Positions 19,110-27,408 of a DNA stretch of 38,461 nt are shown here, in pieces. This DNA comes from Candidatus Hydrogenedentota bacterium (lineage in GTDB: Bacteria; Hydrogenedentota; Hydrogenedentia; Hydrogenedentales; JAEUWI01): contig JACPGE010000029.1 in the NCBI GenBank assembly GCA_016182605.1, forward strand, positions 1 to 38,461, given 5' to 3'. The stretch's first letter is position 1; every line of letters starts with the position of its first letter. The translations under genes were made by a program, and so were the position numbers. Below the pieces are notes generated by a model. That model saw nothing but the letters and a program-made list of their open reading frames with translations, was not told the origin of the DNA and did not search any database.

Positions 19110-21113
19110 TCATTGTTCCGTGCGCGGGCCGTAACACCGGGCAATCCAGGCGGGCGGCGCGCCGAGCGCGTACATCAGCAGGGCCAGGGCGTTCTTCAGG
19201 GAGACGCGCCAGCGGCCGTGATGCTGCCAGCGCCGCGCCGAGGTGAGGGCGGGGGCGTCGAGCACGTGGATGCGCCCCAGCGATCGGCAGCGCCGCACCA
19301 TCCCGGCATCTTCCATGATGGGCAACAGTGGAAAGCCGCCGGCGGCCTCGAAGACGCTGCGGGTCATGAAGAAGGCCTGATCGCCGTAGGGCAGCCGCAG
19401 GCGCCGGCTGCGCAGCCTGGCGCCCCACTCGATGAAACGGTAGGCCGCGCCCGTGCCGTCGACCTGGAATTGAAAGGCCCCCAGGGAGACGTCTGCATAG
19501 GCCACGGTGCGGCGCACCTGATCAGGCCAATTGCGGGGCAGGGTCGTGTCTGCGTGGAGGAAGAGCAGGATCTTCCCCGTGGCCTGTGCCGCACCCGCAT
19601 TCATCTGTTGCGCGCGGCCACGTTCGCTTTGCAGGACACGCACCCCGGCGAAGCGCTGTGCCTCGGCCAGCGTCCCGTCGGTGCTGCCGCCATCGACGAC
19701 GAGGATCTCGACGTTCTCCAGATGCTGAAGGCGGTCGAGGGCGCTGGCGATGCATGCCGCCTCGTTGAGCACGGGAAGGATGACCGAGATTCGCTGGCGC
19801 GCGCGCGCTTCTTCCCAGGCGGGGAGGTCTTCCGGCAGATCGATGTCCGCGGCGGCTTCGAGTTGCGCGCAGGAAAGGCCCGCCGCGGCCGCATTGTCGA
19901 GGGTCTGTTGCAGGACACAGGCTGAACCCCAGTCCACGTTGGCGAGGAGCGCCTTCGCACAGACGGCCGCATCGATGCGCATGCCGATCAGATAATAGCC
20001 GCCATCGAGCGCGGGTCCGAGGACGAGATCCGCGCTGGACAGGGCATTGAAGGCTTCGGCGCTGCGCATGCTGGTGAGTGCCGGACAATCCGCGCCGATG
20101 ATCACCACCTTGTCGCAACCCAGATCAAAGTTTTCGGCAAAGGCGCGGGCCATGCGAGCGCCCAGATCGCCCGTGCCCTGGTCGGCGTAGTCATATTCCG
20201 CGCCCAGCCAGTCGCGCATGACGCCGCGATCGCAGCCGGTGAATCGGATCTCCACACTGGTGCGCCCGTCCGCGGGCGCCGCGGCGCTCAGTATGTGCGC
20301 CGTCATTGCGCGTTGAAGCTGCGCTGCGCCCTCCGCGCCCAGCGCGGGAATGAGCCGCGTTTTCGTGGCGCCGGCCTCGGGCCAGCGGGAGAAGAGTACG
20401 AGCCGCCGATCGCGGGGCATGGCATTTGCGAAGAGGGCCGCGACCGCGATGGTGCCCAGGATCTTGTATCCCGCGCCCAACACGCCCCGGACGGTGCCGC
20501 TCACCTTGGAAATGCCGATGCGCTTGCGGTAGCGCACAGGCACTTCAGTGGCGGGAACGCGCTGGAGTGCGGCGCGGATCTGCATTTCCACGGTCCAGCC
20601 GTAGCCGGGGTCGCGCATGCCGAGCGCGAGGAGTGTGCTGTAGCGGATGGCGCGGAAGGGGCCGAGGTCGGTGTAGGTGACGCCCCAGAAGAGACGGATG
20701 AGGCGCGTGGCGAGCCCGTTGCCAAAGGCGGCCTGCGGGGTGAGTGCGCCCCGCTCATGTTCGCCGCGCATGCGCGAGCCGATCACGAGATCCACCTCGC
20801 CCGCCAGAATGGGGTCCACCAGCAGCGCCATCTCTCCGGGATAATCGCTGTAGTCGCCGTCCAGAAAGACCACGATGTCGGGGTTGTTGAGTTGGGCCAT
20901 GGCGCACAGGCATGCGGAGCCGTAGCCCCGGCGCGATTCGTGCACCACCTTTGCGCCCGCGGCGGCGGCTACACTGGCGGTGGCGTCCGTCGATCCGTTG
21001 TCCGCCACGATAATCTCATCGGCCCACGGCGGGATCTCCGCGATGACTTGAGCGATGGAAGCGGCTTCGTTGAGCGCGGGAATGATCACTGCGATCCGGT
21101 GTTGCTCCCTCAT
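19110..21113 (-). CDS. Triple-domain protein: GT2 + TIGR04282/DUF2064 + TIGR04283 GT2
   Basis: One 667-residue reading frame holds three sugar-transfer domains. Domain 1 (5-230) is a dolichyl-phosphate-sugar-synthase-like GT2 with VIIPALNEAASI, VADNGSTDAT and the acidic motif FLDGDYSD (83-90). Domain 2 (237-435) is a DUF2064/TIGR04282 nucleotidyltransferase-like fold with LFSRWPEAGATKTRL, VVIIGADCPALT and LGPALDGGYYLIG. Domain 3 (441-667) is a TIGR04283 GT2 with VILPVLNEAACI, VVDGGSTDGT, FLHADTTLP and PYGDQAFFMTR. Families 2 and 3 are named for arsenosugar clusters but are common elsewhere; no arsenic gene is near. The ATG at 21113 overlaps the upstream GT-C stop by 4 nt (ATGA); the open frame extends further upstream without homology. 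Confidence 0.9.
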   Translation of the reverse strand: MREQHRIAVIIPALNEAASIAQVIAEIPPWADEIIVADNGSTDATASVAAAAGAKVVHESRRGYGSACLCAMAQLNNPDIVVFLDGDYSDYPGEMALLVDPILAGEVDLVIGSRMRGEHERGALTPQAAFGNGLATRLIRLFWGVTYTDLGPFRAIRYSTLLALGMRDPGYGWTVEMQIRAALQRVPATEVPVRYRKRIGISKVSGTVRGVLGAGYKILGTIAVAALFANAMPRDRRLVLFSRWPEAGATKTRLIPALGAEGAAQLQRAMTAHILSAAAPADGRTSVEIRFTGCDRGVMRDWLGAEYDYADQGTGDLGARMARAFAENFDLGCDKVVIIGADCPALTSMRSAEAFNALSSADLVLGPALDGGYYLIGMRIDAAVCAKALLANVDWGSACVLQQTLDNAAAAGLSCAQLEAAADIDLPEDLPAWEEARARQRISVILPVLNEAACIASALDRLQHLENVEILVVDGGSTDGTLAEAQRFAGVRVLQSERGRAQQMNAGAAQATGKILLFLHADTTLPRNWPDQVRRTVAYADVSLGAFQFQVDGTGAAYRFIEWGARLRSRRLRLPYGDQAFFMTRSVFEAAGGFPLLPIMEDAGMVRRCRSLGRIHVLDAPALTSARRWQHHGRWRVSLKNALALLMYALGAPPAWIARCYGPRTEQ

Positions 21114-22603
21114 GATGGATCGCTTCCGGCCAGGGGCGCTGCGAAGTTCTGCATGGCGTCCGCGTGGCGATCTGCGTGTTTCGATGCACTCCGCGCGCGC
21201 CACCACGCCCAGGCGAGCACCAGCCATACCGGGACAAACTCTATCCACACGACGCCATGATGAAATAGGGCCACGTGGTCCCGCGCGTCCAGATAGAAGC
21301 GCAGGTAGTACAGGGGCAGGGTCGCGGTGAGGAGGAGGAGTCCGGGAGATGGGACAAAGACCAGGAAGGGCAGCATCCACGAGAAGTACCACGGGAACTG
21401 GGTGGGGCTGACGAGGAAGAGCGTGGCCGTGATGATCAAAAGGGCGCGTGGCAGAAACGCGTTGCGGTGCACTTGCCCCTGCTCCACGCGCACCCAGCGC
21501 AGGGCCTGCCAGAGCATAACGAAGGCCACGATGCCCGTAGCGGCCATGCGTCCGGCACGATGGGCGAGCGCGGGGGCGAGATCTCCCCCGAAGAGGCTGG
21601 ATCCTTGCGCCGTGAGCCAGGGGAAGAGCATGAAGAGGGCATCGTTCATCTCCCATCCATTGCCGTATGCGGCCAGCCCCGAGGCTTCGCCGTGTACGCG
21701 GGAAGCGGCTAGAGGAACGAGCAGGGCCGCGCCCGCGCCCAAAGCGCACACCGCTAGGATGGCGCGCCACAGGTTGGAGCGGGCACAGGCACAGGTGAGC
21801 AGCGGCGCAAAGAGCACGGGCCAAATTTTGGTGGCCATGGCCAGGCTCAGCAGGAGGCCGCCGCGCCAGGCGCTGTTGGTGAGCATGGCGAGCAAGAGGG
21901 CGGCCAGCAGCGGCATGAGCAGGACGTCCATGTGCGCGCTGTTGTAGAACTCCTTGATGAGGAGCGGATTCCACCAATAGATGACGACGTGTGTGGCGGG
22001 CAGGCCGGTGGCGTGCAGCGCGCGCAGGAGCACGGTGAAGGTGCAGACGTCGATCACGAGGTAGAGAAACTTGAGCGCGGCCAGACTCCAGGGGACGAGG
22101 GTGTGTGCGATGGCGAAGATGAACTGAGCGCCGGGCGGATAGATCGTGCTGAGCCAGGGATGGTTGATGCGTTGGAAGATGATGCCGGCCTCGCTGGCCA
22201 GTTGCCGCAGTCGATCGGGGGCGCCTTCCCCCTGGAGCAGGTCATCGGGAACATAGGCGTATGGATTGAATCCGTTCGCGGTGACGGCGCCGTCCCAGAG
22301 ATAGCGGAACGAATCATCTTCCAAAATGGGGGCGCTGGGCAGGAGCAGGGCGCGCATGCCCAGCCCGCAGAGAAAGATCCAGGGAAGGAGGCAGGCCACA
22401 GGCCCGCGTTTCAGCGCGAGGAGGATGCTGGCGAAATAAGGGAGGGATGCGGCGATGAGGAGCGCGACGAGCAACAGGATGGGGCGATCGGCCATGTTCG
22501 CCCCGTAGGGGAAGCGTCTGGACAGCGCCAGGAGGGCGGCCATGCAGACGAGCAGCGTGAAGCCGCTGGCCAGCCACAAGATCCGTACACCGCGATTGCC
22601 CAC
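21110..22603 (-). CDS. GT-C membrane glycosyltransferase (GT87/DUF2029-like)
   Basis: The 497-residue protein has about 11-12 membrane helices. The acidic loop motif LEDDSFRYLWDG (94-105) lies after the first helices, where polyprenyl-phosphate-sugar-dependent GT-C enzymes carry their catalytic Asp or Glu. STIYPPGAQ (152-160) and WWNPLLIKEFYNSAHMD are also typical of this mannosyltransferase-like group. It should transfer a sugar from a lipid-linked donor on the outer face of the inner membrane. The downstream triple-domain protein starts inside its stop codon (ATGA), and the first domain of that protein resembles polyprenyl-phosphate-sugar synthases. Donor synthesis and use may thus be paired. 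Confidence 0.87.
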   Translation of the reverse strand: MGNRGVRILWLASGFTLLVCMAALLALSRRFPYGANMADRPILLLVALLIAASLPYFASILLALKRGPVACLLPWIFLCGLGMRALLLPSAPILEDDSFRYLWDGAVTANGFNPYAYVPDDLLQGEGAPDRLRQLASEAGIIFQRINHPWLSTIYPPGAQFIFAIAHTLVPWSLAALKFLYLVIDVCTFTVLLRALHATGLPATHVVIYWWNPLLIKEFYNSAHMDVLLMPLLAALLLAMLTNSAWRGGLLLSLAMATKIWPVLFAPLLTCACARSNLWRAILAVCALGAGAALLVPLAASRVHGEASGLAAYGNGWEMNDALFMLFPWLTAQGSSLFGGDLAPALAHRAGRMAATGIVAFVMLWQALRWVRVEQGQVHRNAFLPRALLIITATLFLVSPTQFPWYFSWMLPFLVFVPSPGLLLLTATLPLYYLRFYLDARDHVALFHHGVVWIEFVPVWLVLAWAWWRARSASKHADRHADAMQNFAAPLAGSDPS

Positions 22604-22742: not shown

Positions 22743-24212
22743 TCAGTGATCTTGCAGCACCTTCTCGATAATGCTGGTGGTACTGTGGCCCTCCACGCCG
22801 GGGATGATCGCGATGGCGCCGCCGTAGCCTTCTACGAGGCGGCGCTCTTCCTGCACGATGGTGTCGATCGTGTAGTCACCGCCCTTGGCGTAGATGTCCG
22901 GCTGAAGCGCTTCGAGCAGTTTCATGGGGGAGTTTTCGTCGAAGACCACGATGTAGTCGACGCATTCGAGGGCAGAGAGGACAAGCGCACGGTCCTTTTC
23001 ATTCACGACAGGCCGATCCGGCCCCTTGATGCGCTGCACCGATGCGTCGCTGTTGAGGCCGACCACCAACACATCGCCACGCTGGCGCGCGGTGAGGAGA
23101 TAGGTGATGTGGCCGACGTGGAGGATGTCGAAACAGCCGTTGGTCCACACGACTTTCTTGCCGTCTTTTTTCAGGGCCTGCACGGTTTTCTCCAGCGCGG
23201 GCAGGGATTTCACCTTTTCCGGGCCGCGCTCGCCAAAGAGCGCGTCGATAAGTTCCGCCTGGCTGACCGTCACCACGCCGGACTGCACGACCGCGATGCC
23301 CGCGGCCATGTTGCCGAGGTAGGCCGCATCGTGCAGTGAGCCGCCCGCGGCAAGGGCAAGCGTGACCGCCGCCGCCACGGTGTCGCCCGCTCCGGTGACA
23401 TCGATTGCCTTGACGGGCCGGATCGGCACGTCTTCGATGGCGCCGTTTTGGCCGAAGATGGTGATGCCGTGGGGGCCGCGCGTGATGAAGACGTTGGTGG
23501 CGGAGGAGAGGAGGGTGCTGCCCGCCTGGCGCAGGGAGTCCTCATCGGTGATTTCGATACCCGCGGCGAGGGCGGCCTCGTTGTCGTTGGGCACGATCAC
23601 GTCGATGCCGTGGAAGATGCCGGCGCGCGCGCGCGAGTCCGCCACCGTGACGAGCTTGTATTGCTTTGCGCAGGCGACGATGGTGTCCAAGACGCCCTGG
23701 CTAATGGTGGAGACGACCTGATCGCCGATCATGATGGCGTCCACGTGGGGCGCGAGGCGCTTGATCTGCGCGATGACCTGTGCTTCGACCTCCCCGGAGA
23801 TGAGGGTGGGCTTGGGCGTGTCGGTGCGCAGCACTTCCTGCAGGGGAATGTTGTGCCCGCCCGCCTTGAGCTTGCCATAGGTGTTCGTCTGGCGGGCGGG
23901 GTCGGTCACGATGCCTTCGGTGTTCACATTGCGCACCGAGAATTCGTGTTTCACAATGCCCGCATTGGTGTCGTTGCCGACGACGCCGACCATGGTTACC
24001 TGGCCCCCCAGGGAGGCGGCATTGCAGGCCGCATTGCCCGCCGCGCCCGGATTGTGGCGTTTTTCATGGACCTCAAATACCGGGATGGGTGCTTCCAGGC
24101 TCACCTCGGTGACGGAGCCGAAGACATTTTCATCGAGGTAGATATCGCCCACGGCGAGTACCCGGACGTTGTTGAATTTCTGGATCAGGTCACGCAAATG
24201 CTCGTCGGCCAT
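22743..24212 (-). CDS. hldE: Bifunctional heptose 7-phosphate kinase / heptose 1-phosphate adenylyltransferase
   Basis: HldE makes ADP-glycero-manno-heptose precursors for the LPS inner core. The 489 residues (E. coli 477) divide into an N-terminal ribokinase-fold kinase with NPGAAGNAACNAASLGG (54-70) and catalytic DVTGAGDTVAAA (271-282), and a C-terminal cytidylyltransferase-fold domain with TNGCFDILHVGH (357-368), GLNSDASV (385-392) and GHSTTSII (475-482). All key residues are present. The ATG at 24212 has AAGGTG 7 nt upstream; the longer open frame upstream is not conserved. gmhA, gmhB and hldD are not in the window. It implies a diderm cell with heptose-containing LPS or a related glycan. 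Confidence 0.95.
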   Translation of the reverse strand: MADEHLRDLIQKFNNVRVLAVGDIYLDENVFGSVTEVSLEAPIPVFEVHEKRHNPGAAGNAACNAASLGGQVTMVGVVGNDTNAGIVKHEFSVRNVNTEGIVTDPARQTNTYGKLKAGGHNIPLQEVLRTDTPKPTLISGEVEAQVIAQIKRLAPHVDAIMIGDQVVSTISQGVLDTIVACAKQYKLVTVADSRARAGIFHGIDVIVPNDNEAALAAGIEITDEDSLRQAGSTLLSSATNVFITRGPHGITIFGQNGAIEDVPIRPVKAIDVTGAGDTVAAAVTLALAAGGSLHDAAYLGNMAAGIAVVQSGVVTVSQAELIDALFGERGPEKVKSLPALEKTVQALKKDGKKVVWTNGCFDILHVGHITYLLTARQRGDVLVVGLNSDASVQRIKGPDRPVVNEKDRALVLSALECVDYIVVFDENSPMKLLEALQPDIYAKGGDYTIDTIVQEERRLVEGYGGAIAIIPGVEGHSTTSIIEKVLQDH

Positions 24213-24345
24213 GGAAGTACACCTTAAATTTGGAGGATCGGGGATAAAGAGAGATTTTATTGAATTGGCAGGGGCAAATGCGAGAAATGATCGGCCTGGC
24301 CCGCAGCGCCGTGCCGCCGCCCGGTAGCGCGGAGACCGCCATCGT

Positions 24346-24774
24346 TCATGCGCAGCTTCCATCTCCCTCAGCAAGACCGTCCGCGGGCCTCGTTTCGAGA
24401 CGTTCGAGCCGTTCTGCGAGGCGGAGCACATCCACATGCATTTCCTTGAGGTCCCGCTGCAATTGGAGGCGGCCCTGCCAGACCCAATAAAGCAGTTTGC
24501 TGCCTGTGATCCAGCCATCCCCGAAGAGAAACATCATGGCGCCGATGACGACTACAACTGTATCGCCGATCTGCACGCCCACGATGAGTGCGCCGATGCC
24601 CAAGAGCATCAGCCAAAGGCCTACACCGGTGCCCAACCAACTTAACATGGCAGCCCGCCGCCGTTTCGTTTCGTACATGGTCTTCACCTCTTCTGTCATG
24701 CCACGGGCGCGCGCCCGCCACTCAGGCGATGCCGGCAGCAGTTTTTCCCGGATATTGTGGTCGAATTCATTCAT
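24346..24774 (-). CDS. Small membrane protein overlapping the ECF sigma gene (possible anti-sigma partner)
   Basis: The 142-residue protein has a hydrophilic N-terminus (1-42, with PASPEWRARARGMTEEV), two membrane helices (about 45-67 and 71-88) and a C-terminal amphipathic or coiled-coil stretch (100-128). The N-terminus is cytoplasmic by charge. Its ATG at 24774 overlaps the sigma factor's last codons by 8 nt, so the two are co-translated. That position is typical of anti-sigma factors, but I see no HxxxCxxC zinc anti-sigma motif. The role is inferred only from context. Confidence 0.72.
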   Translation of the reverse strand: MNEFDHNIREKLLPASPEWRARARGMTEEVKTMYETKRRRAAMLSWLGTGVGLWLMLLGIGALIVGVQIGDTVVVVIGAMMFLFGDGWITGSKLLYWVWQGRLQLQRDLKEMHVDVLRLAERLERLETRPADGLAEGDGSCA

Positions 24775-25860: not shown

Positions 25861-27408
25861 TTAATTGACCGGCCGGAGGTAGAGGACGCCCTGACCCAAA
25901 ATGGGGGTGTGCCAGGGGGCGTAACCGTGCTTTGCTGCAAAGGCGAGGAACTCATGCTCGTGATCGGCCTCGAATCCGGTGAGGATGGCGGCGGGCATGA
26001 GCGACTCCAGATGGTCGAGCCCATGGCCGTCCTGCACGAGGCCGAGTTGTTGCTGGACGTCCGCGGGAATCACATCCCCCACGCGGTAGAAGAAGGCGGA
26101 ACCGGAGAAGGCCTGATCGAAGGGGAGGCCCGCTTCGACTACGAGCAAGGGGGACAGGGTGGAAACGAGGTGCGGTTCGGGGTGATGGGCGAGGGCGGTG
26201 GCCATGGCGCGGGCTTCGTGGTGCACCGTGGTGGGAATCCAGCGCGCGGGAGCGAGCCCGGTGAGGCCCTCTTGAAAGAGATAGCGTCCACCACTTACGA
26301 GCACCACAAGGGCGCAGATCGTCAGGGCAATGTGTACGGAGCGCAGGCGGGATGCTTCGAGCGCGGGGTAGAGCGAGGCGGCGAGCAGAATATAGAACGG
26401 CAGCGGGAAGACCAGGTAGTGGAGGTGCATGGGCCGGGGCAGCATGCAGCCGATGGTGGCGGTGATCGCGACGATGGCCCAGACGAGGGGCAGGGCGTTG
26501 GGGGCTTTGAAGCGTTGCACGAGGCCGGTGCGCCCCAGGCCGATCGCGAGGGCAATAAGGGTGATGGCTATGGCGGCGTTGCCGGTGTAGCCGAGCTTTT
26601 CGAGGGTGTAGCCCACGCGGCTTGACAGGGAAATGCGCCCGAGATCGCCAATGGCGATGCGCCACGCTGTATTGTACTGGTGGAAGATGTAATTGTTGAA
26701 CATGAAGGCATGGGGATCGTGGAAGAAGACCCAGAGTGTGGGGAGGCCCGCTGGCAAGGTGCCGATCACGTAGGCGGCGCCAAGGCGCAGGCGTTGCTTC
26801 GGAGACTCGCCGCCGGGATGGACGAAGTAGAAGAGGACCAGCAGTTCCGGCAGCAGGAGGAAGTAATAGAGTTTGAAGCCCGCGGCGAGACAGAAGAACG
26901 CGCCGCAGAGGGCCGCCCAGGCGCGTGAACGTTCCAGCAGGGCATGCTGCAACGCCCAGGCGCCGCCCAGGGCAAAGGTGAGCGCGGGGATATGGCAGGA
27001 GATGAGGCCGTTGGTGGAGTAGAGCACGAGGGTGTTGAAGAGGAGGAAGGCGGTGAGAATCAGGGATACGGTGTCGTTTCGGGTGGTGTGGCGCACGGCC
27101 AGGAAGAGGAAGAGGCCGCCGAGGGCCATGAGCAGCGCGCTCGCGGCGCGGAAATGCCAGAAGGGATACTCCGTGGGGACAAGCCGCAAGTAGGCCCCCA
27201 TGATCATGGGGTGCAGGGGCATGGCGGAGTAGGTGAAGCCTTGGTAAATGGCATGGTCCTTCGCCATGACCGCACCGGCGAGGTAGTGATCTTCGTCATG
27301 GTTCAGCGGGCTGGTCATGCCTTCGAGGAAGAGGAAGGCAAGCGTAAGCGCGGCACATACCACGAATACGGGCACAGGGATATTGTGTGGGAGCGTGAGG
27401 CCCTTCAT
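25861..27408 (-). CDS. GT-C family membrane glycosyltransferase (ArnT/PMT-like fold)
   Basis: The 515-residue protein has about 11-12 membrane helices and a C-terminal soluble part (about 400-515). The first extracytoplasmic loop carries SPLNHDEDHYLAG (33-45), the Asp-Glu pair typical of GT-C catalytic loops in GT39/GT83-like enzymes. PRPMHLHYLVFPLPF sits before a late helix, also as in that fold. It should use a lipid-linked sugar donor on the periplasmic side; the acceptor is unknown. Its ATG is 17 nt after the SelW-like gene stop, so it is the last gene of the haem protein operon. Confidence 0.82.
   Translation of the reverse strand: MKGLTLPHNIPVPVFVVCAALTLAFLFLEGMTSPLNHDEDHYLAGAVMAKDHAIYQGFTYSAMPLHPMIMGAYLRLVPTEYPFWHFRAASALLMALGGLFLFLAVRHTTRNDTVSLILTAFLLFNTLVLYSTNGLISCHIPALTFALGGAWALQHALLERSRAWAALCGAFFCLAAGFKLYYFLLLPELLVLFYFVHPGGESPKQRLRLGAAYVIGTLPAGLPTLWVFFHDPHAFMFNNYIFHQYNTAWRIAIGDLGRISLSSRVGYTLEKLGYTGNAAIAITLIALAIGLGRTGLVQRFKAPNALPLVWAIVAITATIGCMLPRPMHLHYLVFPLPFYILLAASLYPALEASRLRSVHIALTICALVVLVSGGRYLFQEGLTGLAPARWIPTTVHHEARAMATALAHHPEPHLVSTLSPLLVVEAGLPFDQAFSGSAFFYRVGDVIPADVQQQLGLVQDGHGLDHLESLMPAAILTGFEADHEHEFLAFAAKHGYAPWHTPILGQGVLYLRPVN

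Follow-up and report, generated by a model that had tools for sequence, protein, structure and literature searches.

A three-domain fusion protein and its GT-C partner in Hydrogenedentota: a candidate part of arsenosugar loci, kept in a clade without ArsS

We showed that a 38,461-nucleotide stretch of DNA from a Candidatus Hydrogenedentota bacterium (hereafter the window) encodes a three-domain fusion protein directly downstream of a GT-C membrane glycosyltransferase, and that this pair recurs in loci with ArsS and ArsM in related lineages, while the clade to which the window belongs lacks ArsS. In our judgement it is about evenly balanced whether the two genes represent the sugar-activation and transfer half of the arsenosugar pathway, kept here without ArsS. 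The protein is a fused variant of known families, and it is more closely tied to arsenosugar loci than was supposed in the original prediction. Our literature search found no paper describing the fusion or arsenosugar steps later than ArsS. The features concerned are as follows.

21110..22603, minus strand: GT-C gene, GT87/PimE-like integral membrane glycosyltransferase, 497 aa (Pfam GT87)
21110..21113, minus strand: ATGA overlap of the GT-C stop and the fusion start
19110..21113, minus strand: three-domain fusion gene, 667 aa, uninterrupted ORF whose ATG aligns with those of homologues
20409..21113, minus strand: domain 1, residues 1-235, GT2 like polyprenyl/dolichyl-phosphate sugar synthases and GpgS
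19815..20408, minus strand: domain 2, residues 236-433, TIGR04282/DUF2064, CofC/FbiD-like nucleotidyltransferase fold
19113..19805, minus strand: domain 3, residues 437-667, TIGR04283 GT2

The fusion frame runs from the ATG at 21113 to the stop at 19110 and contains no internal stops, which confirms the originally predicted unbroken three-domain frame starting within ATGA. In the alignment the same start methionine is found in nearly all fusion homologues. A longer ORF of 955 aa was rejected as a real protein, the frame merely staying open into the GT-C gene. The AlphaFold2 model of the fusion has a mean pLDDT of 92 and a pTM of 0.74. An assembly artefact or frameshift is excluded as the source of the fusion, because the identical domain order recurs in 17 distinct full-length, aligned fusions from at least five phylum-level lineages.

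Domain 2 matches the whole of TIGR04282 (residues 238-430; 199.2 bits, cut-off 134; model positions 1-189 of 189) and carries a KTR loop and the motifs GxDCP, DGGYY and DxDxPxD. In the 17 aligned fusions K251, T252, R253, D342 and D370 are invariant, and KTR, GxD and DGG are fixed. The modelled fold resembles 3CGX (Z 26.4) and 7P97 (3-phospho-D-glycerate guanylyltransferase; Z 21.0, rmsd 2.3, 189 residues), and profile matches were obtained to 3cgx, 6bwg (FbiD), 2i5e and 7p97. The domain thus shows the fold, the KTR loop and the acidic metal-site motifs of the CofC/FbiD-like superfamily. Since both fold and profile are CofC/FbiD-like, the term nucleotidyltransferase suits domain 2 better than glycosyltransferase, and its earlier description as a sugar-transfer domain is not supported. 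Domain 3, in turn, matches TIGR04283 from end to end (residues 442-661; 294.2 bits, cut-off 182; model positions 1-221 of 221), contains DGGSTD, LHADT, PYGDQ and ED motifs, of which HxD/GDQ/D are invariant in the 17 fusions, and resembles WrtF and PcManGT.

The assignment of domain 1 is broader. It has a GT-A fold, a DxD motif (Asp85 and Asp87, invariant in the 17 fusions) and likeness to dolichol-phosphate-mannose synthase (DPMS) along the catalytic domain. Its motifs (LDGD, DLGPFRA, YGWTVEMQ and RKRIGxSKxSGT) are conserved in these fusions and also in stand-alone homologues. GT2 models for lipid-phosphate sugar synthases and for GpgS align with residues 7-230, all below cut-off; the best NCBIfam model is AglJ (164 bits against a cut-off of 325), and PpgS (66.6/370 bits) and DPhHxTase_Halo (62.8/375 bits) likewise fall short. 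The profile aligns with positions 2-204 of 223 of the DPMS structure 5MLZ (9e-14), which bears out the idea of a donor-synthase-like first domain. As regards structure, the model gives Z scores of about 24 for GpgS, 25.1 for DPMS (a match whose range spans the model) and 21.8 for ArnC, so that the predicted fold appears tied, being as close to soluble GpgS as to the lipid-phosphate synthases.

The GT-C protein exceeds the Pfam GT87 cut-off (32.8 bits, cut-off 25) and has a GT-C fold (model pLDDT 89.7), with Asp97 invariant within a conserved DxxRxxWDG motif. Its nearest solved folds are ALG3 (Z 22.9), GPI mannosyltransferase I (21.7), ArnT (18.7) and PimE (17.0). All four of these enzymes use lipid-phosphate sugars, in agreement with the lipid-donor GT-C proposed at the outset. 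Further upstream (25861-27408, minus strand) lies a second, unrelated GT-C-like membrane protein, whose match to Pfam PMT_2 is barely over the cut-off.

The search for homologues covered related genomes and a collection of species genomes. Full-length fusions were found in Hydrogenedentota, Planctomycetota, Acidobacteriota (including Blastocatellia), a Syntrophaceae and a Kiritimatiellota. Partial architectures also occur: domains 1-2 were seen in a Phycisphaerae and a further Acidobacteria locus, a protein of domains 2 and 3 without domain 1 in Desulfatitalea and genome G011, and the parts are encoded as separate genes in Bacteroidota and others. The gene directly upstream of the fusion is the GT-C gene in most fusion loci (besides the window, L040, L041, L043, L044, L045, L046, L066, L129, L131, L132, L133, L134, L135 and L136), and the recurrence of the same order beside a GT-C gene, anticipated for related genomes, was therefore found. 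Among 60 related genomes, 15 carry both genes, three the fusion only, two the GT-C only and 40 neither (Fisher p 2e-9, relatedness being ignored). The two genes co-occur even when non-adjacent (G001, G003, G004, G005 and G013). One genome with GT-C and no fusion (G002) is a fragmented assembly.

Two other arrangements were observed. In G032 (L137:570-2257) a weak GT-C fragment accompanies domains 2-3 without domain 1, by deletion or misassembly. In Alphaproteobacteria (L058:4520-6714, L095:4374-6616, L089:3443-5805) GT-C is directly followed by domain 1 as separate genes, and the search for ArsS in these genomes gave no match; close to the two genes, L058 and L095 also have a rhodanese that resembles NF045521 but scores below its cut-off. 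The TIGR04283/TIGR04282 pairs of Alphaproteobacteria are distant homologues in unrelated-looking neighbourhoods, and may or may not belong to the same set.

The link with arsenic emerged from the relatives. In sister lineages GT-C and the fusion share their loci with genes for ArsS, ArsM, rhodanese and DUF547/VTT proteins. Eight sister genomes combine ArsS with the fusion or part of it, usually on one contig. In locus L135, for instance, the genes for ArsM, a rhodanese, a sterol-desaturase-like protein, ArsS (405 bits, cut-off 300), VTT-DUF547, an FAD oxidoreductase, GT-C and the fusion stand in a row. Within the 60 genomes the fusion and ArsS occur together in eight, the fusion only in ten, ArsS only in two and neither in 40 (p 5e-4, again with relatedness ignored). 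Thus, eight of the ten ArsS genomes carry the fusion; the remaining two have an ArsS contig that breaks off, within GT-C in G009 and within ArsS in G024. Moreover, all seven fusion genomes from other phyla (five with full-length fusions, two seen as domains 1-2 only) possess ArsS. Two ArsS matches (L042:850-1863 in G070 and L047:2324-3322 in G074) contain one in-frame TGA each, which was read through; this is consistent with the selenoprotein form of ArsS.

The Bacteroidota locus L080 is a full arsenosugar cluster in which the domains of the fusion are separate genes: AhpD-like, ArsS, rhodanese, domain 2, purine nucleoside phosphorylase, ArsM, DUF547, domain 3, a small membrane protein, domain 1, a membrane GT2 and GT-C. 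The phosphorylase gene, whose product forms a sugar 1-phosphate, stands between the domain-2 gene and ArsM in both L080 and L090. In Sinomicrobium weinanense, in whose genome no ArsS was found, it stands between domain 2 and domain 1, in a row that continues with a membrane GT2 and GT-C (L101:5842-11067). Such a placement would fit a ribose-type 1-phosphate, arsenical or not, as the substrate. The link with arsenic may represent one of several uses, because TIGR04282 and TIGR04283 homologues also occur in genomes without ArsS.

The clade of the window is of this latter kind. The original statement that neither arsM nor arsS lies nearby is correct for the window, and no ArsS (TIGR04167) above the cut-off was found in its own genome or in any of the seven family genomes. 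An incomplete genome hiding ArsS is an unlikely explanation, since five of the seven are 94-98% complete. The bacterium cannot make arsenosugars by the known route. The earlier view that the arsenosugar label is not supported therefore stands for this genome; it fails in general, given the position of the fusion and GT-C inside sister ArsS/ArsM loci and the presence of ArsS in all seven genomes from other phyla.

In the fusion tree the window falls in a clade of seven, all ArsS-minus (support 99/93), which lies among fusions of both kinds. The deep branches of the tree have little support, and mapping the ArsS label on it takes about seven changes, at least four of which are forced by well-supported branches. 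We infer that loss of ArsS in this clade is the simpler reading of the direction of change, but not the only one: ArsS may instead have been gained elsewhere, because the deep tree is poorly resolved. The clade kept the active-site motifs under purifying selection. Of the 161 columns invariant in ArsS-plus fusions, 135 are unchanged in it, ArsS-plus and ArsS-minus fusions are consistently distinguished by a single residue (K335), which lies outside the recognised motifs, and dN/dS is about 0.05-0.3 in all domains where computable, with dS near saturation. Five ArsS-minus genomes of the clade keep GT-C away from the fusion, and no neighbour of GT-C shared by the whole clade was found. GT-C and the fusion are thus kept for an ArsS-independent use.

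From these observations we infer a sequence of chemical steps and a class of substrate. Domain 2 would join a sugar 1-phosphate and a nucleotide into an NDP-sugar, domain 1 would transfer the activated sugar to polyprenyl phosphate at the inner membrane, and GT-C, working on the outer face, would hand it over from the lipid to a membrane acceptor; domain 3 may catalyse a second transfer, with a nucleotide sugar as donor. In the ArsS-bearing relatives the activated sugar would be dimethylarsinoyl-ribose, in the clade of the window a necessarily non-arsenical one. A more specific version, which we consider rather improbable, is that domain 2 converts the phosphorolysis product into NDP-dimethylarsinoyl-ribose, domain 1 forms an arsenoribose linked to polyprenyl phosphate and GT-C transfers the arsenoribose to a membrane lipid, with plain ribose or deoxyribose taking the place of this sugar in the clade of the window. 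To our knowledge, no lipid-phosphate-linked arsenosugar has been described. If this scheme were true, the fusion and GT-C would supply the late steps that are still missing from arsenosugar and arsenolipid synthesis.

Alternatively, GT-C and the fusion might build a surface glycan of the lipopolysaccharide or polysaccharide type, the arsenosugar setting in relatives being a later recruitment. We regard this as possible, if on the unlikely side. In the window, 139 bases separate GT-C from an upstream gene for an HldE-like bifunctional heptose kinase/adenylyltransferase (22743-24518, minus strand; kinase half below its family cut-off, 231/345, adenylyltransferase half above, 195/181.5). G004 and G006 have a GT9 heptosyltransferase-like gene, in G004 immediately upstream of GT-C and in G006 close to it, and the ArsS-less Alphaproteobacteria have GT-C beside domain 1, with TIGR04283/TIGR04282 elsewhere. 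However, the heptose neighbours vary by genome, none was found beside GT-C in the partly annotated G001, G003, G005 and G013, and the strongest gene link of the fusion across phyla is with ArsS and its companions. The absence of ArsS from the clade weighs against another explanation, namely that the genome of the window still makes arsenosugar-like compounds, with methylated arsenic supplied by ArsM and an unrecognised ArsS substitute or the uptake of arseno-nucleosides. Two ArsM loci above the NF008823 cut-off are indeed present in the genome, and the active-site motifs of the fusion are kept; but the ArsM genes belong to the generic family and lie on other contigs, no candidate ArsS replacement was recognised near GT-C or the fusion, and we consider this explanation very unlikely.

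The tied fold of domain 1 bears on a soluble, phosphoglycerate-type route, in which a GpgS-like domain 1 would act on a phosphorylated small acceptor and domain 2 would resemble 3-phosphoglycerate guanylyltransferase, with no lipid-linked donor. Among PDB entries, GpgS is nearest to domain 1 by sequence and by profile (2e-15), and domain 2 does resemble 7P97. The GpgS profile match, however, covers the first half of domain 1 only, while those of DPMS and ArnC cover most of its length; the AglJ model scores above the GpgS model; and the frequent GT-C neighbour needs, by family precedent, a lipid-phosphate sugar. We therefore hold such a route to be doubtful. The reading we prefer is still that of an arsenosugar-type activation and transfer set with a lipid-linked donor.

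We know of no enzymes assigned to the arsenosugar and arsenolipid steps that follow ArsS. Three candidate enzymes fused in one protein, with GT-C beside them and accompanied in several phyla by ArsS, whether in the locus or in the genome, narrow this gap to a few reactions that can be tested. The clade without ArsS serves as a natural control, since it reveals which of the parts function when that arsenic step is missing. Caution is also needed with the NCBI name "arsenosugar biosynthesis glycosyltransferase", which is put on proteins of ArsS-less genomes as well and which has been treated as evidence of arsenic detoxification (PMC13077682).

Domain 2 shares its fold and the KTR, GxD and DGG motifs with 3CGX, a putative nucleotide-diphospho-sugar transferase. 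It has its fold in common with the CofC/FbiD guanylyltransferases as well; their substrates are phospholactate-type acids, not sugars, in contrast to the role proposed for domain 2. For 3CGX we know of no tested function. DPMS (5MLZ), AglJ or ArnC with a GT-C partner (PimE, ArnT) offer the precedent of a GT2 and a membrane GT-C encoded together, as here. Full DPMS has a transmembrane part, whereas domain 1 lacks one and ends after one short helix; furthermore, domain 1 stays below every family cut-off of this group and continues, within the same protein, into a nucleotidyltransferase and another GT2. The arsenosugar loci (ArsM, ArsS TIGR04167, TIGR04282, TIGR04283, TIGR04169, NF045521) differ from the set of the window in that here three genes are fused and ArsS and its companions are absent from the clade. 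They comprise the same domain and GT-C families, and in sister Hydrogenedentota they contain the very same fusion.
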